Below, one piece after another: positions 1 to 26,190 of a DNA stretch of 64,000 nt; position 1 is the stretch's first letter, and each line of letters starts with the position of its first letter. The stretch spans positions 2,480,001-2,544,000 of the forward strand of contig NC_037315.1 in assembly GCF_000143535.2 (NCBI RefSeq), given 5' to 3'. A model generated the notes under the pieces. It did no database searches, was not told where the DNA came from, and saw nothing but the letters and a program-made list of their open reading frames with translations. The translations under genes and the position numbers were made by a program. This stretch comes from Botrytis cinerea B05.10 (Eukaryota > Ascomycota > Leotiomycetes > Helotiales > Sclerotiniaceae).

Positions 1-1834
1 TATTATAATAATATGAAATATAATATTATATTGATTTCATTATCCCTATAATGATATCAATATTTATATTATTATAATTATTATTATATTTTTATTACTA
101 TTTAATATAATATCTTTTTTAAAATAGCTATTTCATTTACAATTCAAATCTTTTCAAATTTAAATTTAAAATTAAGATTCTGAATATCGATTATAATTTG
201 AAAAGAGAAAGGGTTCTTATTTATTATTATGATTATTATAAAAGCTGTTATAGTATTCTATAGCCTGACCTTGTATCTAATATTATATATTAATTTACTT
301 TTTTGATTTACAATTCTATATAAAATGATTAGATTTTTTATAGTAATAGTAGAGGTCGAAATATCGTTTCTTTTTGCAATTCCTATCTTTATTAAAATAT
401 TTCATTGTATTTAGTTTTATTAGATTATTATTGATTTGTAATAATATTTGTATATTAATAGGATAAGATTGATTAGATTAATTGTATATATATTATTGAA
501 GGTTTTAATTATTCTAGGTATATATTGATTATTTAAAATCCCTATGGATAGAATCTAAATAGTAATTTTTTTTTTTTATAATTTTGAAATTAATTAGAAA
601 ACTTTTGTATTCAATTATCAAAATTATTAAGATTATATGAATTGGGATCTATTTATATAAGGATCTTCAATTTATTAGACATTTTAAATTTTAATATCAA
701 AACCAAATTTCTTATATTATAGTGATATTGTCTTTCTAAATAATCAAAAGTGATATAAAAAGTGGAAAATGATTATCTATCTATTTTAAGCTTGTCAAAT
801 TGTATCACTGCTTTGTATTTAATATCAATTGTAATATAAAGAGTATTAAGTTTTTTGAGAAATTGGAATACAAATTTATATAGGGATCTATTATTTAGAA
901 TATCATTAATATCTTTTTATCTTTTTTATTATATATATCCTTTTATTAATAATATTATATAATATATCTTCTTTTCTTCGATATTGAAAATCAAAGAATC
1001 GATCTTCCAATACAATTGAAAACCTTATTTTTGTACAAGATATTCATTTTGTTAAAATAATATAATACTTTTTTTTGGTTTTAAAAAGATTGGGGTTTTA
1101 AAAAATCTATTAATATAAAACGCTATTCAATGATTGTACAATTGTAACTCAATTGAATTGATTATATAAAAGAAAACTAAATTAAGAATTTATTTCAACT
1201 TGAATATGAAGATCTATAATAATAATTTATTTAATAAATAAATTATAATTTAATTAGTTCTAAGTATCTCTCAAAAAGCCAAAAATATAATCAATGATTT
1301 TATAAAAGTAAACAAAATATTTTTATTTCTTTAATATAATAAAGATATAAAATAAATGAAGATTAATATTGATAATCTTAAATAATTCATTAATAAAATA
1401 TTATTAATTAATGAATAATATATAAATGCTAATATAGAATTCTTCAAATTCAAATCCCATCGGGGATGAATTAAGTACATCGAATATATCGATTGAAAAT
1501 AAAAACGAAAATGAAAATAAAAACAAAAATGAAAATAAAGTTAATAAGAAAAATGAAGAATTGATTTTATTAGATTAGATTATTATAATAATAATAATAA
1601 ATTTTTTTGAAAAATAGAATATATTATTATAAAATAAGGGATAAAACCTAAATAAGATATATAATATTCTATAAGAATAGAAGAAGGCACTGAATAAATG
1701 ACGATTATATAAGATATAGATGTTTAAGGCATCTATAAGACTATGCTATTGAACCCGTGATAATAATAGTTGTAGTTGAAGTTAGGAAACAGATTATAAT
1801 TAGAAATTATATATTATATTATTTTGATAATGAG

Positions 1835-2035
1835 AGTAGTACGAGAATGAAAACACATGACTTCAAGATCACATATTACTAGCATTTAGCATTTATAGCT
1901 TCACTTCTATAGACCTCAAAATATTATCGAACTTTCTATCTTTCAAAATTGTTTCCTAAGAAATTAAATAACCAACTCTTACCACCTCCCCCACTTTATT
2001 ATTATAATATAACAATTCATTTTGTTCTATTATAT
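1835..2035 (-). repeat. Dispersed repeat, copy A (inverted relative to copy B)
   Basis: The reverse complement of this segment aligns over about 200 bp with 6570-6765. Shared blocks include a run reading 'tatagaagtgaagctataaa'. Most differences are C/T or G/A transitions, as RIP would leave. The repeat includes sequence on both sides of a TGTTGG-like motif, so it is probably part of an LTR or element end, not a whole element. The family is not identified. Confidence 0.6.
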
Positions 2036-3942
2036 ATAATATTTATTTTATATTTATTTTATATTTATTTTTTATTTAATATATATGATTAGTTATTTTA
2101 TATTTAATATATATTTATATTTATTTTATATTTAATATACATAAGAGTTTTTCTTATATAATCATTATAATTCTCTACTTTAATATATTAATAATTTATA
2201 TAGAAAAGAAAATATTAAAAGATTAATTAGCTATATATAAATTTAAGCTTTCAAATTGTTTTTAAAAAGCAAATGATTATTGAATATAATACACAGATTG
2301 AAGTAGTGAAAATACTAGAGAAATTATAAATAATATAATAATGTAATTTGTGATTATTGTAATAAAGGAGATATTATTTCCCTAAAAATTTAAAACCGAT
2401 GCATAATCTTATAATACAAAAACGAAAAGGGGGAGTAGAGAAACTTTATTATTATATTTATGTTTATTACAATATTGAAAGAATATATTGTAATTATTTT
2501 AAATGAAATAATCTTTTATGGAATCATTGATATTATTTGAGAATTAAGAGAGAATCTTTGTTTTTTCAATTTATGAATTATATAAACAAAGGAATATTAG
2601 GGTAAATAAAATGAAAATTCAAAAATCTATAAGACTAAAAAATTCTTATAGAATTTTGATTATATATAATTAAAATGTAAATGAATTAATAGCTATTTAA
2701 TAAATATTTATTGATAATACGAAAATGAACTTTTTCTTATTTAATAATAAAAGGAAAACAAAGAATAATATTCCTTAATCAATAACTATTTCAAAAACTT
2801 AAAAAAAAAGATTACAAATCAAAAAAGCCTAACAATGATATCTCAAAAAATAATAAAAATATTGATTAATGTAAATACAATAGATTTCTTTATAACTTTA
2901 TAAGAATTTTACAAAATTATAAAAAAGAATAAAAGAACTCAAAATTATGTAAAAACAATAATATAGAATCTTATTTTTTTTCAAGATTACAATTTATAAT
3001 AATTAATCAAAAATAAGATATTAAAAAAAAAAGAGAAAGAAAATATTTTAAAAAATATAAGATTTATCAAATTTGAAAGAGAGATTGATTAAATATAAAA
3101 GAGAGATTTGATTTCTAATTTAATTTTTGAGAATTAAAAAACACCTTTGAAATTTCAAAAGAAAAAGAATTATTTTTTTAATAAATAGAAAAATAATAAA
3201 AAATTAAATTTATTAGATTAAAGTAAAGTATTAATATATTTTTATAAAAAGAGTATATTAATGTTATATAATTTATTATTATTCTAAGATAATTAAATAA
3301 AACAAATACTTTATTATTATTCCTTTTCGAATAAAAGAGAATATTGTGATTCTAAGATTTCAATATTATAAAAGAATATAAAGATATAAAGCAATTCTGA
3401 TATAATTATAAAATAAATAATAAAGATTTTCGTTTATAAATTATATTATAAATAAAAAGAATCCTTTGAAAAAATATTAAGGTTATAAAAGAATAACGAT
3501 AAAAAAATTAAAATTAGAAATATAAGTTTAAGTTTTTTTTCTCAAAAAGCATTTAACAAATAATATTTATCATTTTATTAAAAATATAAATAGGATAGAG
3601 AAAATAATATTGATATATTTATAGATTTTATATATTTATATAATTAAATTATTTAATATATTGATAAAAATAAAAGAAGGAAGGAAGTTCGAATTTTTTA
3701 ATATAATAGTATAAAGATTGATTAAATTTTTAGTATTAAAGAAAAGATTTTAAAAAGTATTAATATTTTAATATTTTGATTTCAATTTGATATATAAAAT
3801 AAAAACGAATATTTTCAAAAATATTTTGGAAGAGGTATTATTTTAATAACTTGATTTCTAAAAAAATAGAAAATAAAAGTATTAATAATATAATTTAATA
3901 GTTATTCTATTATATTAATAAATCGGCTATTATTTTTATATA

Positions 3943-4127
3943 TGTTGGAACATATGACTGACGAAACACGTGATATCATCACGTGTTTCCCCTACATCGT
4001 AAATGGGATAGCAATATCTATATAGATTAATAGAATTCTTTCATATAAAAGGATTAGATAGAATATAAGAATCCTTTTACTCTATATACACTCTATATAT
4101 ACACCCTTTTATAAAGTCTATTCAATA
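3943..4127 (+). repeat. Candidate left LTR of the Copia relic
   Basis: Begins TGTTGGAAC and ends TTCAATA, probably TTCAACA after a C-to-T change. It contains a perfect 11-bp inverted repeat with a 3-nt centre (3964-3974 / 3978-3988) holding CACGTG on each arm. Aligns end to end with 14409-14592 with almost only transition differences. Preceded by ATATA. Confidence 0.6.
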
Positions 4128-6569
4128 TTAATTAATAATTAATAAAACTCAATTACAAAATAATAAGATCAAATCTAATAAAAAAATATCTATTAAAAAA
4201 ACAAATATGATTATATTAAATTAAATTTATATATAATCTATAAAAAAAAATCAAAATATTATATTCTGTATATTATCTTTTTCAAATTATATATTAAAAA
4301 GAGATTTCTAATTATAATTGATTTTCTTAGGATAACTTGATTTACATCAATTCTATTTACATTTATTATACTCTCGTATACACTATACATCAAATTTACT
4401 TAATACAATATAGTATTGAATATTATTATTCAATATAGCTTTTCCAATTTTTAAAATACTTTTATATAAGATAAATTTTATATTTTGAAAAAAACAATTG
4501 AAATTAAATAATATAGAATTTATAAAAATCTAAATAAATATTAATATTATTATATAAATAATTAATCTACAATATAAACAATATAAAAGATAATATTTAT
4601 AAAATGAGTTTCAAAAATGATAAAAAAATTAAATAAAGATTATATTTAAGATTGTATATTAAAAAGCTTTCAAATTTATATAAAATCAATTAATTCTTTA
4701 TAGCTTTTAAATTCAATAAACAAAAAAAGGTTTTAATTATATTAAAGTTTTTATTGAAATTATTCTGAAGAATGAATCAAATAAATAAATAAAAAAGATT
4801 CAAAAAAAAGCAGAATAATTGAAAATAGAATATATAAGTATATATAATCTTATTTTATTAAAAAAACAAATTTGAATTCAAATAATATATATATCAAAAC
4901 TTTTTAAATAATTATAATAAAATAAATAATAATAATAAAATCAAAGTCAGATCCTTTTTAATTTAATAAAACTAAATTATATAATACAGTAGAATACATT
5001 TTATATAATATATAAATAAAACCTTCTTTCAAATCTTATAAAAATATATAATAACAATGAATTCAAATATAATAATAAAGAATAAAATTTCCTGAATAAA
5101 AAATTATAAATATTTTATAAACTTTATAACAAAATCAAAATTTACCCAAATAAATATAAAACAATATTTTCTATGATACTTCAAAACTCTACATTATTTT
5201 TTTATTTTAATAAAACTAATAATAAAAAATTAAAATTTAAAAAAATAATTATATTTATAAAAATATATTTTAAAACAAAAAAGAAATATTAGAAATATTT
5301 TATCAAATAATATAATATAATATTTCTATAGATTATATAAAAACATTTTAATAAATTATTTTTAAAGTAATTAAAAAAGCTTTTAAATATATTTTATATA
5401 TTACAATATAAATTAATAAATTTATATTAATTAGGATTAATATTAAACAATCAAATTATAAATACTTATTATAATACTCTTAAGTATAATATCATTTTAT
5501 TATATTCTATTATAATATATAGAAACCTTTATATTAATCTTTAAAATATTATTAATCAAATCAACAGAATATAATTAATAAATATTTATATTATAGATTT
5601 AATAATTAATAATCTATTAAATATGGAAATATATTAAATAGATTATATATATAGTAATCAAGATTTATATAAAAATCAAAAAAATATAAAATTCAATGGA
5701 AAAGTAAATTTATTCTCCTTCATTTATATTTATTAATAAATATATTAAAAAACTTCAATATTCTCAAATATTATTATATATATTAATTTAGAAATGCTTT
5801 ATATACAAATAATTAGAATATTAATTAATAAACTATTTAAAAAAGGAATGAATAAAGAAATATTCAAATAATATTTTATAAAATATAAAGATATATTTGA
5901 ATTGTAATATAAAAAAGATGAAATATTAAAAGAAGATAATATTTTCGAATATTTTCAAATTAAATCTTTATACAATCAAATAATTCAATTTGAAATAGAT
6001 TTTATTGAAATAGGTTTTATTAATAAAATATATATTATAAAACTATTAGGAAGATAATTATTAATATATACATATATATTTATAAAATAATCAATTCAAT
6101 TAATTATATAAAAAATATAAAAGAAGTAAAAATGTAAATAAAATCTTTCAATTTCAAGATTGATATTTAATAAATATATCTCAAAATGTTATCTTAGATA
6201 TAAATATATTAGAAATATTAATAATAGAAGAATCTCAACTATAAATATTAAAAAAAGAAAGGTATTTTATATATAAAAAGTATTAAATACAATATTAAAT
6301 TCGAAAAAGGAATTATATAATTGCAAGAAGATATTATTATTTAAATATTAATTAGAATTATTATATGTTTTATTGTATTAATAAATATTCCATTTCTTAT
6401 ATGTATATAGGATATAGATTATTTATATATTACATTTAATAATATATCGAATATCCTAAAATAAGATAATAAAATTATTCCTATTGTAAAAGAGTAGAAG
6501 GTGATAATGATTATATAAGAAAGCCTTTGTATATATTAAGTATAAAGCAAATAGCTATATGTAATAAAG

Positions 6570-6765
6570 TAGAATGAATCATTATATTACGATAATAAGA
6601 TGAGAAAAGTATTTAGAACTAAGTATTTAATTTTTTAAGAAACAACTTTTAAAGGTGGGAAATTCGATAATATTTTTAGGTTTATAGAAGTGAAGCTATA
6701 AATACTAAATGTTGGTAACACGTGACCCTAGAGTCACGTGTTTTCACTCTCACACTATTGTATAA
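6570..6765 (+). repeat. Dispersed repeat, copy B, with CACGTG palindrome
   Basis: Partner of the segment at 1835-2035 in opposite orientation. This copy is less mutated and contains a perfect 10-bp inverted repeat around a 6-nt spacer (6717-6726 and 6733-6742), each arm carrying CACGTG. Just downstream is a TATA-like stretch. It resembles the start of an LTR (TGTTGG at 6710-6715) but no paired direct copy was found. Confidence 0.55.
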
Positions 6766-6904
6766 AAATGAGAATACTCTTTTATACTTTTCGATTAAAT
6801 AGAAAAAATGATAATATATTATTACTTAATCGAAAATGAATTTTGATAAATATATCAAAGATTCAAATATCCCTTTATATAAAAATTTATTAAATATTCA
6901 ATTA

Positions 6905-7112
6905 TATAGGATATATAGATATTGATTTTCAAATAATCGAGAAACTCAATAAAGTATATAAATATTGTTAACTTTATATAAAATCCTTAGAATATTTCAA
7001 ATTCATAATAAAAGATAATATTGAATTTAATTATTCAATTATTTTAAATATATTCTATATTGAAGGAATACCTATTCTTTATATCATCGATGAGGCTACT
7101 ATATACAATACT
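6905..7112 (+). pseudogene. Copia-type integrase relic, part 1
   Basis: Plus-strand reading, ending with codon ACT at 7110-7112, gives protein-like sequence interrupted by stops. It has a Cys-containing stretch like the end of the HHCC zinc motif (YKYC followed by a TAA where Gln is usual), then a segment ending in YIIDEAT (about 7080-7100), which resembles the start of the catalytic core in fungal Copia polyproteins. The stop fits a CAA-to-TAA (C-to-T) change. The frame continues on the far side of the Gypsy element at 13550. Family match is from recall of the motif pattern; a profile search with PF00665 would test it. Confidence 0.7.
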
Positions 7113-7592
7113 TGTTACAGGAGCTGCCTCTAGGGTCACGTGGAAGTGTCTAGAGATCTCTCGAGGTGGTTTTAGACTAGACTTCAAGTAGGAATTCAAT
7201 AAGGTTGTAACGGGTTGCAATTCTCGTAACTATAGTAATGAAACTAATGATTGTTCTTGAGCACGAAGCTCTACATTATAATGAAACCCATTCCCTTATA
7301 TAGATCTTCGTCCTCAGTATGCTAATCCCCGAATACTCTCAACATGATGGATCGCAATGGATCGCACTGCGCTCCAGGAGCGCTGGCGCTCCCTGACGCT
7401 CCATCACGTGCCCAAGTCATGTGAGTTCCAATGTCTTAGCTTATCGTTCTTATCCCTGAAATTAGTCCCCTAGGACATTTCTAATCCTAAATATAACTTC
7501 GCGAGAAGTTTGCAAAGTTATATTCCTCTTAATTCCAAGATTGATCTGTTGTCCCGTGACTTCTGTTGACCTGTTACCAATCCGTCGTAACA
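7113..7592 (-). repeat. 3' LTR of the Gypsy element
   Basis: 480 bp, TGTTAC...GTAACA ends, identical to 13065-13544. Contains a C+G-rich cluster of short imperfect repeats of GCGCTCC (about 7369-7402) and a TATATAAG box on the minus strand near 7295-7302. Preceded by the target duplication ATACT at 7108-7112. Confidence 0.97.
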
Positions 7593-7605
7593 CTATCCCC
7601 TTCTT
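7593..7605 (-). other. Polypurine tract of the Gypsy element
   Basis: On the element's coding strand the purine-rich run AAGAAGGGGATAG lies immediately against the 3' LTR, the position used to prime plus-strand DNA synthesis. Confidence 0.75.
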
Positions 7606-7629
7606 AGCCTAGCGCTTGTCCCAAGCGTC

Positions 7630-7636
7630 TATATAG
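7630..7636 (+). promoter_or_regulatory. Possible TATA box for the antisense gene
   Basis: TATATAG on the plus strand, about 55-60 nt upstream of the ATG at 7691, lying between the LTR and the antisense frame. The spacing is plausible for a short 5' leader, so the gene may have its own promoter inside the element. Confidence 0.4.
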
Positions 7637-7690
7637 AACGTAGTACCCCACTTGGGATATTTGTCGCTGTATGGTATTTCTTTATTCAAT

Positions 7691-8284
7691 ATGACTGACA
7701 ACTTTCACAAACGAAAGGAAAGATTACGTTTAGCTCGTCTCGTTGAATCCCGTGGTTTCGAAATGTCTTCTTGTTCTCTGTGTGAACGCCAAGGGCGTAA
7801 ATGCATTGTTTCTTCTTCAGATTCCTCGCGGTGCGCCGAGTGTATCCGTCAAGGGCGAAAATGTGACGTTCGTGGTCCTGTGGAGAGTGATTGGGATAGT
7901 CTGGATCGTCAAAAGGCCAGATTGGATGAGGAGGAGGAACGCGCGATTAGTGTTTCTCAGGAAGCAATGGCTAAAATCCTGCGATTGCGAAAGCAGAAAC
8001 GTTTCCTGTTGAAACGTGAGTCTGAGATGCTTCGCCGTGGTTTACGAACTCTCGATGAGCTAGTGGAGGCGGAGGAGAAGGAGAGACTAGAAAAGGAAAA
8101 GATTGAAAAGGAGCGTGTTGAGGAAGAAACAGCAAACGTTGATGCTGCGCCTACTCCTATTGATTCTTCTTCCTTCGACTTCTTCGATCCTTCTTTGCCT
8201 GAGTTGTCCGAAGCGGATCTTGAGGCTTTACTGGCAGGTGTGGGTACTTCAGGTGGAATGCCCGTAGCTTCTCAGGGCAGCTGA
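7691..8284 (+). CDS. Antisense retrotransposon gene: Zn(II)2Cys6-like, coiled-coil, acidic-tail protein
   Basis: 197 aa, encoded on the strand opposite to Gag-Pol, filling the space between the pol stop and the 3' LTR and overlapping the last ~128 bp of pol tail to tail. The open frame extends upstream to a TTG at 7652, but the first ATG is 7691 and a TATA-like box precedes it. Near the N-terminus, after a basic stretch (HKRKERLRLARL), six cysteines are spaced CX2CX6CX9CX2CX6C. This fits the fungal binuclear zinc cluster (CX2CX6CX5-12CX2CX6-8C), with basic residues (RQGRKC) in both halves. A long charged helix rich in E, K, R and L follows, probably a coiled coil, then a tail with FDFFDPSLPELSEADLEALL, resembling an acidic activation domain. 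I infer a DNA-binding or regulatory protein, for example acting on LTR transcription or silencing. I recall multi-copy hypothetical proteins of similar layout in fungal proteomes but cannot verify this here. Confidence 0.75.
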   Translation: MTDNFHKRKERLRLARLVESRGFEMSSCSLCERQGRKCIVSSSDSSRCAECIRQGRKCDVRGPVESDWDSLDRQKARLDEEEERAISVSQEAMAKILRLRKQKRFLLKRESEMLRRGLRTLDELVEAEEKERLEKEKIEKERVEEETANVDAAPTPIDSSSFDFFDPSLPELSEADLEALLAGVGTSGGMPVASQGS

Positions 8285-11200
8285 GATCCTCCTTGAATTC
8301 CCATGTGTTTTCTGAATGTGGGTAGTCTAACCATTTGATCAAATACTTGACCTTGTTTCTGACGTATTTGCAGTCTAGTATTGTTTCGACATCGTATATG
8401 GCGTTTGGGTTGACTGGTTCAATTTCTGTAAATGGCGCATTTGGCGCTCCTGGTGGTGCTGGTTCGAGCAAGGATATGTGGAATACTGGGTGGATATTCA
8501 TTGTGTCTGGTAATTTCAATCGATAATTAACCGTTCCTATTACCTTATCAATCTTGAATGGTCCTAGTTTCCTGTGGTCGAGTTTATTGCTTGGTCTCTT
8601 GGTTTCGATGTTTCGTCGTAGCAAATAAACTTTATCCCCCTCTTTAAGCGTAGGTTCCATACTACGTTTCGTATTGTAGTACGCTGCTGTTCTGGAAGAT
8701 ATGAATCTTAGATCAAGAGCCAGTTGCTCTTGGAGATTTTTCAGCTGTTCGACTTGTACTATTGCTGATTCGGCATTAACTTCTTGTGGTATCGGGATTT
8801 TATACGCTTGTGGATTAAACCCAAAATTAGCTCGTGCTGGTGTGATTTTCGTGGTTTCCGTTTCCGATGTATTATATGCGAATTGTGCCATAGGTAATAG
8901 TTCTACCCAATTGTCTTGTCGATAATTTACATAGCATCTAAGATATGCTTCCATTGTCTGATTGGTCCTCTCTGTTTGACCATCTGTTTGTGGGTGGAAA
9001 GATGTCGATAGCTTTCTCTTGATACCCATAAGTGCTAATAAGGTAGTCCAGAATTTTGAGGTAAAGAGCTTGTCTCGATCCGAGATTATCTCATCTGGTA
9101 CTCCGTGTATGCTTACTATGATCCTTAGGAACACATATGCTAGTTGTTCAGCATCCCATGTTTCCTTGAATGGTATCATATATGCAAATTTCGTTAGCCT
9201 GTCTACTATATTGAGTATCGCGTCGTACTCAATTCCTGTAGTAGGATCCTTTGAGAGTGGTAGTTTGACCACAAAGTCCCATGTGATGGACTTCCATGGC
9301 TGAGAAGGCATGTCTGGGGTCTGGAGCTGACCATACGGAGCATGTCGTGATGACTTGTTTCGTATGCAGGTGTCACAATTTCCAACAACTTCTTCAACTA
9401 TCGTTCTCATTCGTGGGAAGTAACTGATTTCCCGTATTCTTGCAAATGTCCTTGCAATTCCTTGGTGTCCATGTGCCGGCAACCCATGTTGTTCCGTCAC
9501 AAATTCCTTGGTCATTTGACTCGGAATGTATACTTTTCCATGAAAGTATATGGTATCATTTTCTATAGTGAATCCTGGTTCTATTGTCTTGCGTATGCGT
9601 GTGGCAGTAGCATCCTTGTCGTAGTGTGATTGAATCTGTTTTCTGAGGTGGTTGTCTTCCAACAGGTGTGTTGCTGCAAGCTGTGGTGCATTGTAGACCA
9701 GTGATTCGCCGTCTTTCTTGAATATAGCGTATGACTCGTACGTTTTGTTTTCTTGATATTCTGGTTTTCGGCTAAGAGCGTCGGCTCTAGCGTTTTCTGA
9801 TCCTTTGACATATGAAATTCTGAAATTGTAGTTGGCCATGGTCTCCGACCATCTGACCTGTCGTCTGTTTAACTGCTTCGTTGTGGTGAAGTAAACCAAG
9901 TTCTTATGATCTGTATACACCTGTACTGTGTATTTCGATCCTTCCAAATATACTCGCCATTCTCTAAATGCATCGACTATCGCCAGTAATTCTTTGTCAT
10001 ATATCTCGTAATTCAACTCGGCTGGTGATAGTTTTCGGGAGTAGAATGCGATTGGCTGGTATTTTCCATTCTGGCCCGGTTGGCTCAGAACTGCTCCTAT
10101 AGCGAAATCTGAGGAATCCGTTTCCACTATGATTTCTTTCTCTGGGTCAAAAGTCAACAGTATTGGTTCTTCTGCCACTGCTTGTTTGAGTGTATCGAAT
10201 GACTCCTGTGCTTTGGCAGTCCATTCGAAGCTTCCTTGATCTTTTCTGGTTAACGTGGTCAAGGGTGTAGTAATCCCTGAATAACCCTTGATAAATCTTC
10301 TATAGAAGTTGACAAATCCTAGAAAGGATTGTACTTCCTTGATTGTGGTCGGCTGCTTCCATTCGAGCACTGCCTTAACCTTGTCTTTGCTCATCTTGAG
10401 CCCTTGGCTTGATACGGTGAATCCCAAGAATTCTGTTTCTGTGACATGGAATTCGCATTTGCTTGGTTTGCACAGCAAGTCTGCTTTGGATAGACTTTCG
10501 AGGATGCTGCTAACGTCCTTAATGTGTTGAACCTTGTTGTTTGAATATACTAGGATGTCGTCCAAGTAGCATATACAGCAAGTATCCAAATATTGTGACA
10601 ACACATTGTTCATAAGCCTCATGAAAGTAGCTGGTGCGTTGGTTAGCCCGAACGGCATAACTTGGTACTCGTATAGCCCGTATCTTGTTTTGAAAGCGGT
10701 TTTCCATTCTTCGCCTTCCTTCATTCTGATCAAGTGGTAACCATTACGTAGGTCCATCTTGGTGAATATCGTAGCTCCGCCTAATCGATCTCTTAATTCC
10801 GTAGCTAATGGAAGTGGATATCGATCCTTCTTAGTGAGTGCGTTAAGCTTTCTATAGTCTACAACTAGTCTATCGGGTCCATCCTTCTTGGGTACCCACA
10901 TAGTTGGACTGGCCACTTGGGACGCGGATTCCCTGATCCATCCCTTGGCTAAATTGTCGTCGATGTATTCTCTGAGCCTTTTTAACTCATCGGCTGACAT
11001 TGAATAAATTGGGGTGTGCACAGGCATCTTGCCTTCCTCCAATATTATCTCATGATCCCATGGCTTGTGTTCCGGTAAAGCCTCATGGATCCCTGGTTCT
11101 TTGAAAACATGTTCATATTTCTTGTACTGTTCTGGTATCGTAGGCCTTTCTTTTGCCTCGATTGCGATTTCGTGCCGTGTCGTTGGCTTCTGCATTTGTA

Positions 11201-13013
11201 GAGGAGGTGTACTGGCCTTCGCTCTTAATGGAGGACCCTGGACTGGGTGTCCTACGTCGCCGGTGTTGTTCGCGTTCAACTCTCCTTGGCGCGTGTTACG
11301 TCTCGCGGACGCCTCTAGCGTGTCCCTGTGACCGCTTTTGCACTGATCAAATGTCACAATTCCTTGTGCCCAATCTATTTTCGGATTATGTGCCTTCAAC
11401 CATGGCATTCCTAAGATGATCTGTTGTTGGCCCAATGGCACAACGTCAAGCTGTATAACCTCTGTATGTTGGGTTATGCCCATTCGTACTGGGATTGTCT
11501 CCTGCGAAATCTTTCCGTCAGACCCTGCTAGCTGTCCGTCAACTAACTGCAATCGATAGGGGTATTGTTTCGTCTGAAGTGGTATTTCCAAGTACTTTGC
11601 AGCTTCTGGTGCAATAAAATTTCCTGTAGCCCCTGAATCTATCATGGCTGATTGTATGTGTCCATTTATCTGAACCTTGCAGTATATCTGTCCTGCTTGT
11701 CCCGTAGCATTCAACTGCTGGGTAACTTTGCGAACTTTTCGCGAAGTTATATTTGAAGTTAAATCCGTGCATGTTACATTATTCTGATGGTTCTTCGTCT
11801 TCCTTTTCTTGGGGAACCATCCGGTTGCTTCTTTATCTGATCGATGGATTCCGCAGAATTCATCATAGCAAGCTGTCCAGCTCATCGTGGCGTGGTCCGC
11901 TTCTGCCTCGTCCTGGTGACTTTCTTCTGTCACAGAGGGTGTTGGGGTTCTGTAATACTCTTGTTCCCATAAGTCTATTGCATTCATGCCCTCTTTATTT
12001 CGTGGTAATTCCTTTAGTAATTGCTGGAATTCCTCAACGGTGAAAGTCTCAGTATTTTCGGATTTAGTTGGGTTTTCTGGGATTGTAAAGGTAGCGTTAA
12101 GTTGGCCTTTGCCGAACTTAGGTTTGAAGTTGCCCCTTTTTCCTCCTGTCTTCTTGCTTCGGCAGTCTGCTGCTCGGTGCCCTGCTTTTCCACATTCAAA
12201 GCATAAGTTGTTTTCTCGTCTTCGTCTCTTTTCTGAGTCATCGTTCCCGTTTGTGTAGTGCGTAGCGTCTAGTTCCATGGGGTCTCCGTATCTTTGTGGA
12301 TTGTAACGTGGTCTACCCTCATTCTTGCGGTAACGCCCTTGCTTCTGATTTCCTTGGGGTTTGTATGATCTCTGGCTTTGTCGATATCTGTAGAGACGAT
12401 CATCTGATTCGATGGAGTCCTGAATTAGATCGTTCAGATCTGTACTCTCGGCAGATCTTTCTAATTCCAGTCTGACTTCTGGTTTGAGTCCCTTGCGGTA
12501 GTGACTCATGATAGCGATTTCGTCCCACTTGGTTGTTCCAGCGTATCTTCGAAATTCCGTAGCATATTTCAATGCTGATCCTGTCTGCTTGAGGTTGAAG
12601 ATCTTATCTTCCGCTACCTCTAGCTCGTTGGAATTTCCGAAGATTCTACGAATCTCTGTCTTAAATCCTTCAAAGCTATTGAAGATTGTTCGGGTGGGTT
12701 GCATGCGATCCTTATCGTCATGCTCGAAATAGTCGCGCAAATATGGTTGGATCCATTTGGTTGCTTCACCTCGAAGGTATGATGCGGCCCATATACTCTT
12801 GGATTCCTTGGTAGTGAACTTGTCCTCATTGAATCGAAAGTAGATCTCAAGTTGTAAGAGGAAAGTATCGAGCTCTTGTCGACTACCTTGGTACTTGTCT
12901 GGTAAGGCGATCTTAAGGGTTTCGTTGATAGTGATCTCCTTTGGGGCATCGGTCATCTCGATGTCGTTGGTATCTCCGGTAGGCTGACCTGTGGCGGTAG
13001 CTCTGGATGCCAT
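8157..13013 (-). CDS. Gag-Pol polyprotein of a Ty3/Gypsy chromovirus
   Basis: One uninterrupted 1,618-aa frame with no Gag/Pol frameshift. In order: Gag capsid-like region (about 30-215); CCHC zinc knuckle, C271 to C284 (CX2CX4HX4C); aspartic protease with DSG at 459-461; reverse transcriptase with YLDD at 816-819; RNase H with ETDSSDFAIGAVL (first Asp 966); HHCC zinc domain around 1180-1220; integrase core with D1246, D1312 and E1348 (35 residues between the last two, the classic DD35E); and a C-terminal chromodomain (about 1545-1595: YDVETILDC, YLIKWLDY, NTWE). All catalytic residues are present, so the element looks competent. Chromodomains of this class are thought to steer integration to H3K9-methylated chromatin, in keeping with the site found here. 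Confidence 0.97.
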   Translation of the reverse strand: MASRATATGQPTGDTNDIEMTDAPKEITINETLKIALPDKYQGSRQELDTFLLQLEIYFRFNEDKFTTKESKSIWAASYLRGEATKWIQPYLRDYFEHDDKDRMQPTRTIFNSFEGFKTEIRRIFGNSNELEVAEDKIFNLKQTGSALKYATEFRRYAGTTKWDEIAIMSHYRKGLKPEVRLELERSAESTDLNDLIQDSIESDDRLYRYRQSQRSYKPQGNQKQGRYRKNEGRPRYNPQRYGDPMELDATHYTNGNDDSEKRRRRENNLCFECGKAGHRAADCRSKKTGGKRGNFKPKFGKGQLNATFTIPENPTKSENTETFTVEEFQQLLKELPRNKEGMNAIDLWEQEYYRTPTPSVTEESHQDEAEADHATMSWTACYDEFCGIHRSDKEATGWFPKKRKTKNHQNNVTCTDLTSNITSRKVRKVTQQLNATGQAGQIYCKVQINGHIQSAMIDSGATGNFIAPEAAKYLEIPLQTKQYPYRLQLVDGQLAGSDGKISQETIPVRMGITQHTEVIQLDVVPLGQQQIILGMPWLKAHNPKIDWAQGIVTFDQCKSGHRDTLEASARRNTRQGELNANNTGDVGHPVQGPPLRAKASTPPLQMQKPTTRHEIAIEAKERPTIPEQYKKYEHVFKEPGIHEALPEHKPWDHEIILEEGKMPVHTPIYSMSADELKRLREYIDDNLAKGWIRESASQVASPTMWVPKKDGPDRLVVDYRKLNALTKKDRYPLPLATELRDRLGGATIFTKMDLRNGYHLIRMKEGEEWKTAFKTRYGLYEYQVMPFGLTNAPATFMRLMNNVLSQYLDTCCICYLDDILVYSNNKVQHIKDVSSILESLSKADLLCKPSKCEFHVTETEFLGFTVSSQGLKMSKDKVKAVLEWKQPTTIKEVQSFLGFVNFYRRFIKGYSGITTPLTTLTRKDQGSFEWTAKAQESFDTLKQAVAEEPILLTFDPEKEIIVETDSSDFAIGAVLSQPGQNGKYQPIAFYSRKLSPAELNYEIYDKELLAIVDAFREWRVYLEGSKYTVQVYTDHKNLVYFTTTKQLNRRQVRWSETMANYNFRISYVKGSENARADALSRKPEYQENKTYESYAIFKKDGESLVYNAPQLAATHLLEDNHLRKQIQSHYDKDATATRIRKTIEPGFTIENDTIYFHGKVYIPSQMTKEFVTEQHGLPAHGHQGIARTFARIREISYFPRMRTIVEEVVGNCDTCIRNKSSRHAPYGQLQTPDMPSQPWKSITWDFVVKLPLSKDPTTGIEYDAILNIVDRLTKFAYMIPFKETWDAEQLAYVFLRIIVSIHGVPDEIISDRDKLFTSKFWTTLLALMGIKRKLSTSFHPQTDGQTERTNQTMEAYLRCYVNYRQDNWVELLPMAQFAYNTSETETTKITPARANFGFNPQAYKIPIPQEVNAESAIVQVEQLKNLQEQLALDLRFISSRTAAYYNTKRSMEPTLKEGDKVYLLRRNIETKRPSNKLDHRKLGPFKIDKVIGTVNYRLKLPDTMNIHPVFHISLLEPAPPGAPNAPFTEIEPVNPNAIYDVETILDCKYVRNKVKYLIKWLDYPHSENTWEFKEDLSCPEKLRAFHLKYPHLPVKPQDPLRTTQAKKDRRSRRKKNQ

Positions 13014-13064
13014 ATTAGCGGTTGGTTATCGAATCGGTACTTGAAGCAGAAATGGTGCTCAAAG

Positions 13065-13544
13065 TGTTACAGGAGCTGCCTCTAGGGTCACGTGGAAGTG
13101 TCTAGAGATCTCTCGAGGTGGTTTTAGACTAGACTTCAAGTAGGAATTCAATAAGGTTGTAACGGGTTGCAATTCTCGTAACTATAGTAATGAAACTAAT
13201 GATTGTTCTTGAGCACGAAGCTCTACATTATAATGAAACCCATTCCCTTATATAGATCTTCGTCCTCAGTATGCTAATCCCCGAATACTCTCAACATGAT
13301 GGATCGCAATGGATCGCACTGCGCTCCAGGAGCGCTGGCGCTCCCTGACGCTCCATCACGTGCCCAAGTCATGTGAGTTCCAATGTCTTAGCTTATCGTT
13401 CTTATCCCTGAAATTAGTCCCCTAGGACATTTCTAATCCTAAATATAACTTCGCGAGAAGTTTGCAAAGTTATATTCCTCTTAATTCCAAGATTGATCTG
13501 TTGTCCCGTGACTTCTGTTGACCTGTTACCAATCCGTCGTAACA
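13065..13544 (-). repeat. 5' LTR of the Gypsy element
   Basis: 480 bp, identical to the other LTR; followed by ATACT (13545-13549), the second copy of the target duplication. It should drive Gag-Pol transcription toward lower coordinates. Confidence 0.97.
13247..13254 (-). promoter_or_regulatory. TATA box of the Gypsy 5' LTR
   Basis: The minus strand reads CTATATAAGG here, about 235 nt upstream of the Gag-Pol ATG (13013). It is a good RNA polymerase II TATA box and would place the transcript start about 25-40 nt further along, defining U3/R. Confidence 0.6.
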
Positions 13545-13549
13545 ATACT

Positions 13550-13990: not shown

Positions 13991-14408
13991 TGCAAAGCCC
14001 TATTATATAAAGAATCAGTATATTACATACAATATAAACTTTACAGCAAATACAAGATAAGAACTCAAAACAATCAAGTACCCTATAGTCAATATAAAAT
14101 ATACATTTTTAAAAATTCGGTAATTACAACTTTCAATAATTCTAAAAACCATCAATACAATCTCGAAATGAAAAATATCAACTAAACCAATCGAAAAACA
14201 TATACAAAATGAAAAGCTTCTGTTTTTAATAAAATTAAAGAATACAAATATTGAATATTTAATTGATTTGAGAAAAGAATTCACCATATTCATTTAAATA
14301 AAAAATAAATACAAAAATCGAACTAAACAATTAAATAACTATTCGTATTCCAATAATCAATCCGATTTATATATATAAAACTTTATATAAAAAAGAAAAT
14401 TAAACCTA

Positions 14409-14592
14409 CATTGAAACACATAACTAATGAAACATATAATATTATTATATATTTCCTTTATATTGTAAATAGATAATAATATTTATATAGATTAACAGAA
14501 CCTTTTTATATAAAGAGATTAAATAGAATATAAGAATCCTTTTACTTTATATGCGTTTTGTATATACACCCTCTTACGACGTTTGTTCAATA
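14409..14592 (+). repeat. Candidate right LTR of the Copia relic
   Basis: Direct copy of 3943-4127, 184 versus 185 bp. Its CACGTG palindrome has been erased by transitions (CACGTG to CATATA-type sequence), while its 3' end (ACGACGTTTGTTCAATA) is better preserved than in the left copy. Followed directly by ATATA. Confidence 0.6.
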
Positions 14593-17500
14593 ATATACAA
14601 AATACATTTGTATATAATTATATACTTTTTTTAATTATTAATTCAATTTTTTGAAAATCTAATATTAAACATTTGATGATATATAAATTATAAAAATTTA
14701 ATTAATTTTAATGAATTAGAGTTTTTAAAATAGTTGTTATAAAAAAAGCGTTTTTGTAATGAAAATCATAACAACTTTGATTTTTTTTGAAATCGAAAAG
14801 AATTATTTAAAGAAATCTTTTTTTAAATAATTGATTATTTATTATTGTTGAATATTCTTTTTTTTAAAAAATAATAATCAATAATTAAAATATAAATTAT
14901 TTAAAAATATAATTTTTTATATATGTTGAAATAACCAAACTATCATTAAACCATATTATTCAATAATATTTTAATTAAAAAAATATAATTAATAAAATGC
15001 TGATATATTATTTATAATTAAAAACTCCTAACAATTATAAAATACTTTAAAAATAAAAGAGATATTTGAAAAAAGCATAATTCAATATTAAAATCATAAT
15101 AATTTATAAAAATTTGAAATACTATATTTTAATTTAAAAATTAAATTAAAAATAAACAAAATGTACAATACATCTATTTTAATACAATTTTTACATTTAT
15201 TATCAAAGAAGATTTACAAATCCTATAAATGAATTTGATAAAAATTAAATCATATGAATAATAATAAAGACAAAATTATTATTTAATTCTTTATTTTTCA
15301 AAATAAAATAAAGAAAAAAAATTATATTAAAATAATAAAAATTTATAAAAAGGGTTTTAATGAAAAATCAAAACTTATCAAGTTTGTTAAAGCGATTTCT
15401 AACGATATCTTAAAAGGATTAGCTATTAGTTATATAATATATTATATTAAAAAGTCGAGATCTAAGAAGTTTACAAATAATAATATATTATTTGAATAAA
15501 TACAAATTGATATTATAATTAATTCTAATATTCAAAAAAAAGAGAATAAAAAAAACCAGAATCTTATTAATTACAATCTATAATTATTAGTAAAAAGTAT
15601 ATTAGCTATTTCAAAAGTTTAAATTAAAACAATTATTATAATTATAATTATTTATAAAATTAAAATAAAATTATTTTTGAAAGTTATTTAAATTATTTGA
15701 AAAGTAGACTCGAAATATATAAAATTTAAAATAAATATTAATTTAAAAAAGAAATGTAATTTAAAAAATGAAATAGTATGTATAAATAATTTTATATTAA
15801 AGAAAAAACTTTCTCAATTATATTATAATAATATATTTATAAAGTATTTTAATGAAAAGAAAACAATAGAATTATTAAAATGTAATTATATATAATAAGA
15901 AATATGAAAAGAATATAAAAAATATATAAAGAAATATAATAACATATAATATTTTAAATTATATAGATAGTTAAATAGCTTATTATATTCAATTCAATTG
16001 TGATTTGAAATATTAATAGATTTCATAATGAATCTATTATTTATTAAAAGTAAATAAAATAGAAAACAATTATTTAATAATATTTTAATAATTATAAATA
16101 GATTTATAAAGATGATAAGATATATTTTATATTATAAAATTAATATTTCAATTATATATTAAAGTATTTTCGAAATTTAAAATATTTAAAGATATTATAT
16201 TTAATAAAGAAATAGTTTTTATTAATACTTTTTAATCAATTTTTTCTTTTAATATAAAAATGAAAAAGTATTTTAATATAGTTTTTCATTTTTGAATAAA
16301 TAAACAAATAAAAAATAAAATCAAATATTAAAATATTATTGCTTTATGAATACTCTTTTATTATATTTTATATTTTCTAGTATATTTTGTAGAGAATTAT
16401 ATTTGAAATAGATTATAAATTTGAGTTTGTATTCAAATTAGAATTAAAAAAAGAAGTATATAAAATATAGAGAAAAGGTAGAGGTTGATATTTAAAAAAG
16501 CAAAGGTTATTAAAATTATTAAGAGGTAAAGATTTAATTATAAAAGAATTGAAGTAGAAGTTTTTTATTGTTAAGATTTAAAGAGATCTTAAAAATATAA
16601 TAAATTGAATTATTTAATGGTATATATATATATATCTATTATTTATCTAATAAATATATTTATTTTCTTAAAGTTATTTATATTTATATTTCGTGAAAAT
16701 TAAAATTATATAAAAAAAAGAAGATGTAATTTAAAGAGATCTATAATTCAATTGTAATTATATATTAAAATAAATCTATTAATAATATTATCGATTGTAT
16801 TAGAAAATCGATTGTTATAATAAATAAGAATAATAACAAATTATTAAAGATTTCGATTTTCAATCGGAAAAATTAATAATAATGATTTAAGATAACAAAG
16901 TTTTATATTGTATAAAAAGATTGGGGTTATATTATTATTAATAATATAATTATATATTAATATTAGAATAGCTAAATTCGATAAAGTAATATATAAAATG
17001 AAGAAAGCTTAAATTAATATAGAGCTTTCTATTATTTAATAGATTAATAATATAAATAATAAATTTATTAAAGAGATTGTTAAATTTAATATAAAATAAA
17101 TCAAATTACAAAGAATATATATATATTGTTTTTTAAAAATCATAAAATAAATTTATTTGATTTATTATATAAAAGTTTAAAAAATGATATTATAATTAAA
17201 AAAAGATTGGTTTAAGTTTTATTTTATTCGAAAGAAGATTATTAAAATAAGTATAAATTAGAAAGATATATTGATTGAAGATATTATATTTGATTTTTTT
17301 ATTTAAAACCTTTTAAAATGATTTAATATTATTATTGAAATAAAGATTTCAATACTAATTATGGAAATCAATAAAATACTTATAATATTCCTAAACCTTA
17401 TCAGCAATTCAATATATTTTATAATTATATCGAAAGCGATTTCCTGACCTCCTTTAAAAATACTTCTAATATAAAAATATAAAACAACTTAGCTTTTTCT

Positions 17501-17740
17501 CAAAACTATTTTAATTCTTATAAGATTTTGGGAAATATAATATTTCTATAATAAATCACTTACAAAGATTATTTAGAAATAAGAATTGAATTAAACATAT
17601 TATAATTAATATAAAGCTTTTACAACTTAACTCTATAAATAATAAATCTTTATTTATTAAAATTATTATATTCCTAATACATACTTCTTTTTTTTATATA
17701 ATCAATCTTATTAATAATAAATATTCAAATAAAGTCTTTA

Positions 17741-17910
17741 TGTTAGAGTCAATGCAAGGTGACGACTAGTGTATAATAGGATCCAAAAGAATATAAGATT
17801 TTTCATTACTTTTCTCAATCCTTTTTAGAATGAAGCTATATATGATATGAAAACTCTATATCGAATAAATGATTGATTCAATATTGGTTTTATATCGATG
17901 TTTCGTAATA
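17741..17910. repeat. Left LTR of the TRIM-like element
   Basis: 170 bp, starts TGTTAGAGTC; its last bases TAATA correspond to TAACA in the other copy. Preceded by CTTTA. Confidence 0.85.
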
Positions 17911-18299
17911 GAGTTTTTCCCTTCAGAACTTTCGTTTTCGAAAGTTATAAGTGCTATAAAGAATTCGAAAGCTTTAAAGCTTATTCGATAGATTCCCTTT
18001 ATTATATCGATGTGCTTTCGAAGCCTTATTAAATCCTACAGCAATAAGTCTATTGCAGTGTCTACATCCTCATTTTATGAGGTTCAACTCCTTTATAATT
18101 CTGAGAGCTATATTGTAGTATAAGAGTGCTAAGAGTTAAACTGAATCCTTTAAAACCTTTAAAATCTTCAAAATTCGAAAATTCGAAAAATGGCCACTTC
18201 CTTTCCTTTATTCTATTAATATTGTTTCGCTTTCGGTAGAGTGGTGATTTATATTCGATAGGGTTACTTCCCCTTTTTCGGTTTTCGCTTTTGAAAGCT

Positions 18300-18372
18300 A
18301 TAAGAGTTTGAAAATCTGAAAATTCGAAAATCTGAGAATTCGAAAATCTGAGAGTTCGAAAATCTGAGAAAT
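18300..18372. repeat. Short tandem repeat (GAAAATCTGAGAATTC-type) inside the TRIM-like element
   Basis: About five imperfect copies of a 15-16-bp unit reading GAAAATCTGAGAATTC or GAAAATCTGAGAGTTC in tandem. No coding potential. Confidence 0.7.
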
Positions 18373-18419
18373 TAGAAATCGATGGTGTTCTATTAGTATT
18401 GAACTAGTCGGGCACAGAA

Positions 18420-18670
18420 ATCCCGAAAATCCTATAAAATCTTGTAAAATATATAGAATCCTATAAAATGTATGAAATCTTGTGAAATCCTGTAAAATGC
18501 AGAGAATCCTATAAAATCCTATAAAATCCTATAAAATGTATGAAATCCTATAAAATCCTATAAAATGTATAGAATCCTATAAAATCTTGTAAAATGTGGA
18601 GCTTCATTGGCTTTCCACTAAGTCCTCGAAATCTAAAAGAAATCCTGAAATCCTATAAAATGTGGAGAAT
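18420..18670. repeat. AATCCTATAAA-type minisatellite inside the TRIM-like element
   Basis: More than fifteen imperfect copies of an 11-bp unit (AATCCTATAAA and variants AATCTTGTAAA, ATGTATGAA), partly grouped into higher-order units. The array makes up much of the right half of the interior. Confidence 0.75.
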
Positions 18671-19298
18671 GTTTGAGAGACCTGGAATTCTATAAAATAG
18701 CCTATTTGCGTTTCTAGATGAATGACTTCAGTATAAATATTGTTTTGTTTTTTACTAGATACAAATTATTCGATGTAATATCGATTGTTTGCAATTGGCT
18801 TCTATTAATGGATTCTAATTGATTATATAATAACTAGCTAGGTTTTTCTCTATATAAAAGGTCTTAAATATTATATAAAAATATTATTATTTCGATAATA
18901 GAATTTAAATACACTATTAATATTTTGCAAACACTGCTTAGAATAGGATTCGCTTTTTAAAAGAAAGATTCTTCTTTTCAATATTTTCCCCTCCTTTTTT
19001 AACTTTTATTCAATTATTCTATTTCATTTCAAAAGAATATTAAAAATATATTATAAAAATACTTTATAAATATTTCTAAAGAATTCGATTTATAAAAGCT
19101 TTCTTTTTTAATATTCTTTTAATTCAATTTTATAAAAATAAAAGGTATTTCAATGATTTGAATATTATCACTCATATACCAATAATATATCCTAGACATA
19201 TCACAACCTAAAAGAGTTTTAAAGCTTTTCAAAGCTTTTTAAAGTTATTCCCAAAAACTAATCGATAACTTGCTTTAAAAAAATTGAATAAAAAGAAT

Positions 19299-19468
19299 TG
19301 TTAAAATCAATACAAAATAACGACTAGCATATAATAAGATCCAAAAAAATATAAGACTTTTCATTATTTTTCTTAATCCTTTTTAAAATGAAATTATATA
19401 TAATGTGAAAACTTTATATCGGATAAATGATTGGCCCGATGTTGGTCCTACATCAACGTTCCGTAACA
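19299..19468. repeat. Right LTR of the TRIM-like element
   Basis: 170 bp, begins TGTTAAAATC and ends CCGTAACA, followed by CTTTA. Its 3' third keeps more G+C (GGCCCGATGTTGGTCC) than the left copy, while its 5' third is more mutated; each copy was hit at different sites. Confidence 0.85.
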
Positions 19469-20880
19469 CTTTACTAGTTATACTCTTATTAAAAATAATA
19501 ATATATTGATTTGGATTCTATTATATTAATAAAACTCCTATTTTGCGAATAATAAAATAATAAATATAATTATTAATTATTTTATTATAAATATAATTAT
19601 AATTATAATTATAAATTTATATTATAAAATCTAATTGTTTTTTATTATTACTTTTTTTTTAAAAATATTAATTATTTTCGAATTATTCTAGTTTCGATAT
19701 TATGATCCCTTTATAAAATTAATTTAAAATAACTTTTTTATTTATATTTGGTTATTATATAATACAATATTACCTTTAGAACTCTTTTTGAATTATATAA
19801 GTCTTTATAATCAATTCGTTTTACTTTATATTATATTTTATAAAGATTATAGAGAACTCTTTTTTTCAGAAGAAATCAGTAATTACTTTTTGATAACTAT
19901 ATATAAAAAAAGATTATAATATTATTATAAATATAATACTTATAATAGAAACTAATTATTATTATATTAGAATTTATATTAAAGATAAGAATACTCAAAC
20001 TTAATTAATCAAAAATCGCCCTAGCATTTACCCAATCCCGATTAAGAAAATAACTAAATTCTATCACTAAAAATCTAATTCACAATGGAATTCATTATTA
20101 TTACTTTCTATTCCAATATCAATTATATATATACTAATAAAAAACCCTAATACAAATAATATTTATTAATTTTAGACTACAAGTTTTATTTTCTTCTACT
20201 AATAAGATAATATTCAAATAATTCAACTTATATAAAACAATTTAAATTGAATAATTAATTATAAATCAAACTTTCTATTTCCTTCTATTGATCTTTAAGA
20301 TTTAAAATATAAGAATATTCTATAAGATAATAAGGATTTCTATAAAACTCTTTTATAAAAATTATTATATTTATATAATTTTGTTTTGAATTGTTATAAA
20401 TCAATATATCTATATAAAATCTCAAAAGCAAATATCTTTAAGTTTTTTATTAGGAAATTTAAGCTCAATAATATTAAGATTATAAAGAAAAGCTTTTTAA
20501 TTGATTATAAAACAAATTGTTTATATTCTTATCTAAAAAAAACTGATATCCTTTTAAAACGATAAACCTAAGATTACAAAATTGAATTAATATTTAGAAA
20601 GAAATCTCTCTATTTTAAAAATAGATTATTATTATTATTAAAGTTGGAGATTGTTTATAAATAAATCGATAATAATCTTAATAAAGAATTCATTTATAAA
20701 TAGAGATTTTGTAATATTGCTTTTTTGTTTTTAGTAATCAAGTTTGATAGAGGTATATGTATTTGTTAGGATTATTATAGATTGAATAATATTATAATAA
20801 AAAATCAATATTTTTTCTTTATAATTCATAAAACTCTAAATGCTTTTTATAATATTAAAATCTATATAAAGCTAGATATT

Positions 20881-21830
20881 ATAATTGTTTTTAATAAAAT
20901 ATATATTATTAAAAGAGATAAATGAAAAACAACATTTATTATTTGTTTTAAACTTTTCAAATTATTTATTATATTATTTAGCTTTTATAATGTTTTAGCC
21001 TTTTTTCAAAATAATATTAATTATATATTATTTAATGAGCTTAATAAATATTATATTATCTATTTAAATAATATTTTTATATATTCAATTAATATATTAA
21101 AATACAAAAATTATATTAAAAATATAATATAAAAATTAATCGATATTAGTTTTTAAATTGATATTAATAAGTACAAATTCGAAATAATTTCAATCCAATA
21201 TTTGGAATTGATTATTATAATTAATAATATTAAAATAGATTCGAATAAAATCACCATTATTGTTTTCTGGAAATAATCTTTCTTTATAAAGGATCTCTAA
21301 TATTCCTTAAAATTTGTTAATTTTTATTAATAATTTATTTAGGATTTTTCTAGGATTAATTGATTATTTAATAATCTAATATAAAAGAATTTTATATAGA
21401 TATAGGGATTGAAATAAAAAAAAAATTTTATATTCAAGAATACTTTTATTATTATATTAATATTCACCTATTTCGATTACAATAGAAAAACAGTTTAAAA
21501 GATTGATATATTAAATTAGATATTGAATAATATTCTTTTATAATATAATATAAAAAATATATTTCTTATTAAAATATTTGGCAATTAAGTATAATTATAA
21601 AATCTATAATAAGGAATTCCTTACAATTATAAATTTTATAAAAGAATGATAATTAGAGCTTTAGGGATTTCAATATAAATTTGAGATTCTTATTAATTAT
21701 AAGAATCTCAAATATTTCATAATTATAAAAGTATTAAATCAATAATAGATTTACTAATTCGAATTTCTTTTTCAATATAATGTCCATATAATTTATAGGC
21801 TGGGAGCTAAGATTATTTAATTAAACACTT
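20881..21830 (+). pseudogene. Gypsy reverse transcriptase / RNase H relic
   Basis: Plus-strand translation shows a decayed Gypsy Pol. FNKI followed by a stop in KTTF is where RT has EWKTAF, so the TGA fits a lost TGG. LNKYYIIYLNNIFIYS (catalytic motif at 21061-21072) has YLNN instead of YLDD, both Asp codons GAT now AAT. Then KFVNFY with stops matches the FLGFVNFYRRF region. After at least one frame change, NLKYF (about 21704) and YRLGAK (about 21795-21812) match the HKNLxYF and YxPGxxN stretches of RNase H. All changes fit G-to-A or C-to-T transitions. It is a different, older copy than the intact element at 7113-13544. Any integrase that followed is too decayed to name. Confidence 0.75.
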
Positions 21831-24800: not shown

Positions 24801-26190
24801 ATAATTTTAAAAACTATAAAGAATTCAATCTTAGAAATATAATTAATATATATTTTAATAAATCTATCAATTTGATTATTATATAAATATCTCAAATTGT
24901 TAAAATAGTTAATATCAAATAATTAAATTAGATAATTTGAATATAATAATAAATATAAATATATAACATCATTTTCTTTATAATATATTTGAAAAGTTAT
25001 TGATTTGTAACTTTTATATTCATTTAATATTAATATTCGATATTTACCCTTTCTTCGATTCTTAATATACTTATCGAAATGTTTCAATTATTTTAAATCT
25101 ATTTTATTGTTTGTTTATTTATTAGATAAAAATTTAATAATCTATTTTATAAACAAATTTGTTTCAATATATTAATTGAAAAGATAAACTTATTTTTGAA
25201 TTATTAGAAATAAAGAGATAGTTTTATTCTTTTCATTTTTATATATTATTATTAGAGTTTATTCTCAATTATTTAATTATATTATTTTATTTTTACTATT
25301 TTATTTAATATTAATTATTATTATTGTTATATATATAATTCCTATTATAAAGCCTATTTCATTGAAATTATAGAAATCTCCATTCAAAATATTATATTTT
25401 GTTTATATATTTATAATTAATTGAAACCACTTTTCAAAAAGCTTAGGATTCTTATAAAGAGTTTTTTGAAAGTTATAAATATAACTAAGATATATCTTTA
25501 ATTCAATTCAATATTTTACAAATCGATATATTTAAAGCTTTCCAATATATTTTGTATATTTCGATTTGAGAATATTATTTATCATATTTTCTATATTCTT
25601 TAATTTAAATAGAAATCCTTTTAAATCTATATCAAGTATATATTAAACAATCACTTTTTCTTTTAATTCTATAATTTTATAATTATTTATTCGAATTTCT
25701 ATATAGAAGAATAAACCTTTTATTTTATAGAAAAATATTATATATATTATATTATATAGTTTAGTAGTTTTATAAATATTAAGCTTTTTATTTTTTTGAA
25801 TAGTTTTAATAATTAAGAGTATTTGAGTTTCTTTTCTTATTGATTATATAATAAATAATTAATAAATTGTATGTTGAAATTGGAGAGTGTAAATTGAGGT
25901 AAAAGTGATATATTTGGTAATATAGTATACTCGGTGTTAAACCACGTTAAATAAAAAGTATTAATATTATAAAACTATAAAGATTAAATTATAATATGTA
26001 AGTTTGTATATCTTAATATTATCACATAATAACTAACCCAATATAATATAGTGAATTTCCTAATATATGATACGATCGATATTGCCAATAGATTATATTA
26101 ATAAATAAAGAAATTATATAATTATATACAAACAGATTTTATATATATTTGAAATGAACTATCTAGTGACATAGGTTACTCAGTATTAAA

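Follow-up and report, generated by a model that had tools for sequence, protein, structure and literature searches.

The window analysed here, 64,000 nucleotides of the Botrytis cinerea B05.10 genome (RefSeq assembly GCF_000143535.2, contig NC_037315.1, positions 2,480,001 to 2,544,000), contains a Ty3/gypsy chromovirus that carries, antisense to its gag-pol, the gene brtn. We show that brtn is a real gene, that its frame is under purifying selection and that all close copies of the element examined carry it. It is also a hypervariable, exchangeable cassette, several old versions of which sit on nearly identical elements, and this suggests that brtn sets the elements apart. For the protein, BRTN, we tentatively propose, with a confidence a little short of even, the role of a small, antisense-encoded, dimeric zinc-cluster transcription regulator of the element, its target and direction of effect being putative.

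The element (7113-13544, sense on the minus strand) is assigned to the chromoviruses by its gag, protease, reverse transcriptase (RT), RNase H and integrase order, a chromodomain, a pair of long terminal repeats (LTRs) and a target site duplication, ATACT. The two LTRs, 480 bp each, are identical, in keeping with the young copy that the initial annotation had seen. Boty-like retrotransposons of B. cinerea reportedly carry an additional antisense gene, named brtn by Zhao et al. in 2011 (Virology 417:248), and the window gene agrees with this description as an antisense open reading frame (ORF) located in a B. cinerea gypsy element, between pol and the 3' LTR. In a protein search, a UniRef entry named Putative BRTN (P0003) matched its product with 87% identity at 98% query coverage. 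The gene is most probably the brtn of Boty-like elements, already named. Excerpts of the annotation literature assign it to BcGypsy1 and include one BcGypsy1 consensus without the start of brtn (PMC8365987). To the 2011 description, as conveyed by excerpts of the literature citing it, the current work adds evidence for a Zn2Cys6-type domain, the exchangeable cassette and a brtn-specific palindrome; in those citing passages, neither cassette exchange nor the palindrome was found.

Selection on the brtn reading frame

The plus-strand frame is open over 7652-8284, and its first ATG (7691) lies 98 bp inward of the 3' LTR. The intact ATG frame of 197 codons opposite Gag-Pol, reported in the initial annotation, is thus present at 7691-8284, and it does start between the pol stop and the 3' LTR, as claimed; its last 128 nt, however, lie within the 3' end of pol, because the gag-pol ORF (8157-13013, minus strand) terminates inside brtn. 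This tail-to-tail overlap measures 125, 128 or 140 nt in all eight cassettes compared.

Across the genome searched (42.63 Mb, 18 contigs), BRTN matches 61 places, 30 of them stop-free, including one short fragment. All 28 RT matches of at least 95% identity have an antisense brtn at 1475 bp, stop-free in every case; three of these RT frames contain stops themselves, yet their brtn stays open. Among the stop-free RT rows, 25 of 36 are accompanied by brtn and the remaining 11 belong to other families, with RTs 30-53% identical (six tested directly, five judged from coordinates alone). This linkage count took 68 of 100 RT rows; the 32 left out include five stop-free ones (30-31% identical), which by coordinates lie near no brtn match.

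Codon maximum likelihood (ML) on eight natural cassettes, two pairs of which (L022/L029 and L032/L033) are closely similar, gave an omega (dN/dS) of 0.14 for brtn outside the overlap. Constraining omega to 1 was 112 log units worse (2*delta lnL of 225), and the other five frames of the same DNA gave 1.36, 1.99, 1.75, 0.41 and 2.34. By parts, omega is 0.03 for the zinc part and 0.10 for the helix part, with synonymous sites near saturation, and 0.33 in the pol overlap, where it is confounded by pol. The initial annotation had argued against a chance frame and had named the other copies and their dN/dS as the place where its reading could fail; the outcome was the opposite, the copies being intact and omega far below 1.

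These data leave very little room for a chance frame or a recently captured piece of a host gene. As excerpted, the latest B05.10 annotation has no gene at brtn (PMC8365987), which fits such an origin. A chance frame is ruled out by omega, the frame controls and the 28 of 28 intact copies, and recent capture by the presence of relatives in ten other named genera.

Another possibility is that the antisense transcript matters rather than the protein, convergent transcription yielding double-stranded RNA and small RNAs. The overlap of 125-140 nt, kept in eight of eight cassettes, would suit it, and BcGypsy1 is listed among the small-RNA-producing subfamilies in excerpts of one report (PMC8365987). 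According to passages from two studies, however, retrotransposon small RNA production in B. cinerea requires the RNA-dependent RNA polymerase RDR1 (PMC10766185), and during infection more than 80% of the small RNAs from LTR retrotransposons map to BcGypsy3, not BcGypsy1 (PMC8365987). Therefore, the small RNAs can be accounted for without brtn antisense RNA, though it may add to them. Given, in addition, the strong, frame-controlled selection at the protein level, we consider this explanation quite improbable.

A GT...AG stretch of 110 nt (8264-8373) was also observed, which would splice brtn near its end onto a further plus-strand frame antisense to pol. The spliced product would end exactly as a Monilinia fructigena gene model (P0005) does; P0037 ends alike with a different junction. 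The end of P0005 shows brtn next to pol in Monilinia and points to a possible longer isoform. A Monilinia transcript resembling truncated Pol and BRTN also appears in a passage of the literature (PMC5987419).

A zinc-cluster-like domain in BRTN

The cysteines of BRTN (residues 28, 31, 38, 48, 51 and 58) have exactly the CX2CX6CX9CX2CX6C spacing given in the initial annotation, and all six are kept in 57 of 66 aligned relatives. The Zn2Cys6 family, Pfam PF00172, ranges over CX2CX6CX5-12CX2CX6-8C, within which BRTN falls. The sequence itself does not reach the PF00172 cut-off (no match at E<=1), and an NCBIfam scan gave no meaningful match. In a set of 45 (the window BRTN plus 44 of the 57 proteins from the protein search), 27 match PF00172 at E<=10, and among 31 relatives scanned singly one passes the cut-off (P0035, 22.3 against 21).

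In a profile search of the PDB, the top six of the 12 sequences listed, and seven of the 12 overall, are GAL4, LEU3 or PUT3, the best E value being 0.035. An AlphaFold2 model has a predicted local distance difference test score (pLDDT) of about 95-98 across residues 11-60, and in a second structural comparison LEU3, PPR1, GAL4, HAP1 and Pho7 align to residues 20-95, with PPR1 at 1.8 A over 35 residues; KAP1 and CENP-Q were set aside as matching the long helix only. The structure prediction that the initial annotation had proposed for the Cys region has thus yielded a high-pLDDT model that aligns with GAL4-type structures. Together, these data indicate that in BRTN a Zn2Cys6-type cluster likely precedes long helices and an acidic tail (Table 1); the profile and structure evidence agree, each being weak alone.

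Several differences from the classical factors should be noted. BRTN resembles GAL4, LEU3, PPR1, PUT3 and HAP1 in its Cys spacing, the predicted fold of residues 25-61, the helix that follows and the acidic tail. Unlike them, it is only 197 residues long and encoded antisense in a retrotransposon, no middle homology region was seen in it, and its relatives mostly fall below the Pfam cut-off. In GAL4, a lysine contacts CGG; at the position of this GAL4/LEU3 lysine BRTN has a glycine, and a lysine is retained in only seven of 66 relatives. As possible targets, CGG/CCG sites were located in the LTR and leader. As for the element-encoded DNA-binding regulator of the initial annotation, the intact, selected gene and the likeness of its product to Zn2Cys6 regulators stand, so that this interpretation is supported in part; its binding to DNA, control of LTR transcription, countering of silencing and action on host genes are putative.

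The loss of this lysine in most relatives would also fit a different role, in which BRTN is an accessory of the replication cycle, such as an RNA or integrase/chromatin partner, with the zinc cluster and coil serving protein or RNA contacts rather than promoter binding. In favour of such a role, brtn is present in all close copies, lies near the polypurine tract and overlaps the chromodomain tail of pol. No brtn match accompanies the other stop-free gypsy families in the genome, however, and so BRTN is not a general need; moreover, antisense expression would keep it apart from Gag-Pol. We regard an accessory function as unlikely.

At the C-terminus, SQG-like tails occur in 33 of 66 relatives, and the tail of the window protein is encoded opposite the SCPE end of the pol chromodomain. 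The conservation of the tail may be owed to pol, and in other genera it may be a mark of the same overlap.

A functional parallel can be drawn with HBZ of human T-cell leukaemia virus 1 (HTLV-1). HBZ, a retroviral bZIP protein, is encoded by an antisense gene at the 3' end, belongs to the DNA-binding type of regulator and has an acidic activation part. The comparison concerns how the two might work, and no homology is claimed. Antisense genes of plant LTR elements, as excerpted in a 2020 review that calls their function unknown (PMC7264820), are alike in position, orientation and within-family conservation, a likeness drawn without sequence comparison; brtn differs in being fungal and in having a zinc cluster and cassette exchange.

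Exchange of brtn cassettes and the promoter block

The 28 close copies carry six brtn types (T1-T6) on a common backbone. In five full copies of differing type, gag-pol bins are 96-100% identical (86-87% in one bin of L021) and the 5' leader 98-100%, whereas brtn residues 1-83 are only 33-81% identical in DNA. Over 18 copies, gag-pol identity across types is 97.6-98.8%, or 95.2-95.7% in pairs with L021; T6 and part of T4 were compared by RT protein identity (90-100%) and the pol end. Fast mutation in place is excluded as the source of this divergence, because among L010, L018, L022 and L024 the dS of gag-pol is 0.05-0.09 while that of brtn in the same pairs is 0.73, 1.58, 1.79 or saturated. 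Repeat-induced point mutation (RIP) is not favoured either, since the eight compared cassettes are without stops.

Exchange is seen at more than one scale. Although L020 and L021 have the same brtn type, the gag-pol of L020 is nearer to that of T1/T2 copies (98.3-98.8%) than to that of L021 (95.6%). Within brtn, L010 and L018 are 64-77% identical per window in the first half and 93-98% in the second, and L029 is identical to L022 across the first windows and resembles L021 in its second half. From these patterns we infer that old brtn versions have been exchanged onto a common, recombining gag-pol backbone. In L021 (G000:C5:2376600-2384600), the pol segment matching 10001-11000 is only 86-87% identical to the other copies, a sign of recombination with another, unseen pol lineage.

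The versions were placed on a tree of 66 sequences (seven own cassettes and 59 of 82 proteins, 23 fragments, near-copies and decayed rows having been removed by hand). The own types are spread over four clades, each with its own support: T1/T2 group with Sclerotinia and Monilinia (100/97) and T3/T4 with Stromatinia and Monilinia (100/99); T5 belongs to a clade of 16 rows that includes Rutstroemia and Hymenoscyphus, among others (99/94); and T6 groups with unnamed proteins (100/95). Relatives were found in many Leotiomycetes, in ten other named genera, and none in the viral contigs and prokaryotic genome contigs searched. The initial annotation had proposed searching other Leotiomycetes for the protein beside pol; the relatives are there, and adjacency to pol is readable from gene models in Monilinia. 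Compared with the single gene of the excerpted citing literature, brtn is here a family whose members, divergent cassettes subject to exchange, encode a zinc-cluster-like domain.

Upstream of brtn, the spacer between LTR and ATG is 85-100 bp. Its first part, consisting of the polypurine tract, the palindrome CGCTTG-YCC-CAAGCG and TATAT, is kept in all eight cassettes (extended to TATATA in two), and divergence between cassettes begins immediately past TATAT. Genome-wide, the palindrome was found 32 times and its reversed control not once; each of the 32 sites precedes a brtn match by less than 300 bp, in a distance check that took 40 of the 61 brtn places. As a hairpin in sense RNA it has a fold z of -1.9. 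It may serve BRTN or a host protein as an operator, or form a sense-RNA hairpin; conservation alone does not decide.

The LTRs themselves do not follow the cassettes. Those of L018, L021, L022, L029, L032, L033 and L034 are 89-100% alike though these copies carry four of the six brtn types, which speaks against each version being fitted to its own LTR; L010 and L024 have LTRs of their own. No strict co-variation of brtn type with LTR sequence was seen among the compared copies. Together with the rarity of the CGG-contact lysine, these shared LTRs weigh against simple control of the LTR by BRTN.

They would be compatible with action on the host, in which case BRTN would work against silencing or change host transcription and owe its hypervariability to an arms race. 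The zinc part is hypervariable on a common backbone and common LTRs, this variation does not track LTR sequence, and the protein is built like a regulator. On the other hand, the sole DNA motif found with brtn is inside the element, none of its 32 sites lying elsewhere in the genome, and an omega far below 1 signifies constraint within lineages, not rapid amino-acid change. In our judgement, a host target has a minor chance of being correct.

Having weighed these alternatives, we return to regulation of the element. In the proposed mechanism, a TATA-like promoter of its own, located between 3' LTR and ORF and directed back into the element, would drive brtn, and the zinc cluster and coil would bind element DNA as a dimer. 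The first candidate target would be the brtn-specific palindrome, 2 bp 5' of the TATA-like box. The acidic tail helix would act on transcription, such that BRTN might influence, by feedback, the expression of both brtn and the element; cassette variation could then alter which copies respond to which protein, or allow escape from a repressor or host factor.

By analogy, brtn might even be an exchangeable specificity locus with a logic like that of a phage immunity region, old versions of a DNA-binding regulator being recombined onto one gag-pol backbone, behind the promoter that holds the element-specific palindrome. This extension is speculative and more probably wrong than right by a wide measure; if true, elements would differ in the regulator they answer to and could evade or shut out one another. 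The gene also bears on why antisense genes are retained in LTR elements. The 28 copies, with a common gag-pol and six brtn types, form a natural swap set: the regulator-like part differs from type to type on an otherwise nearly constant background, and this makes the question testable.

Features and surroundings of the element

Table 1 Coordinates of the element and its antisense gene, in positions of the window
Feature	Position	Strand	Basis or remark
Target site duplication ATACT	7108-7112; second copy 13545-13549		
3' LTR	7113-7592	-	480 bp; identical to 13065-13544; ends TGTTAC...GTAACA
Polypurine tract, sense TAAGAAGGGGATAG, adjoining 3' LTR	7593-7606	-	Sequence read; putative role, from position
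Palindrome CGCTTG-TCC-CAAGCG, candidate operator or RNA hairpin	7613-7627		Cassette and genome-wide counts
TATA-like box, about 61 bp 5' of brtn ATG, 2 bp past palindrome	7630-7636	+	Predicted from sequence only
brtn, 197 codons and stop, antisense to gag-pol	7691-8284	+	ORF, copies, codon ML
Zn2Cys6-like cluster, Cys28-Cys58	7772-7864	+	Spacing, profile, model, structural alignments, omega 0.03
Long helices (residues 65-116, 121-150), possible dimerisation coil	7883-8140	+	Model; omega 0.10 for residues 84-155
Acidic/hydrophobic tail, short helix 174-183, entirely inside pol 3' overlap	8157-8284	+	Sequence, model
gag-pol, 1618 codons: gag, protease, RT/RNase H, integrase, chromodomain	8157-13013	-	ORF and domain matches
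5' LTR	13065-13544	-	480 bp

The element, of normal GC content, is flanked by AT-rich DNA at 1-7100 and about 14000-26000 (12-23% GC in 2-kb bins), the young copy lying inside; such flanks are as expected of RIP-decayed repeats. Within this AT desert, two GC-richer palindromic patches with CACGTG (3960-3995 and 6717-6745) are alike in build. From 27041 to 62542 the window holds ordinary-looking host ORFs, among them, as named by eye, carboxylesterase-like (27041), HET-domain-like (29736) and DEAD-box helicase-like (40208) ones.
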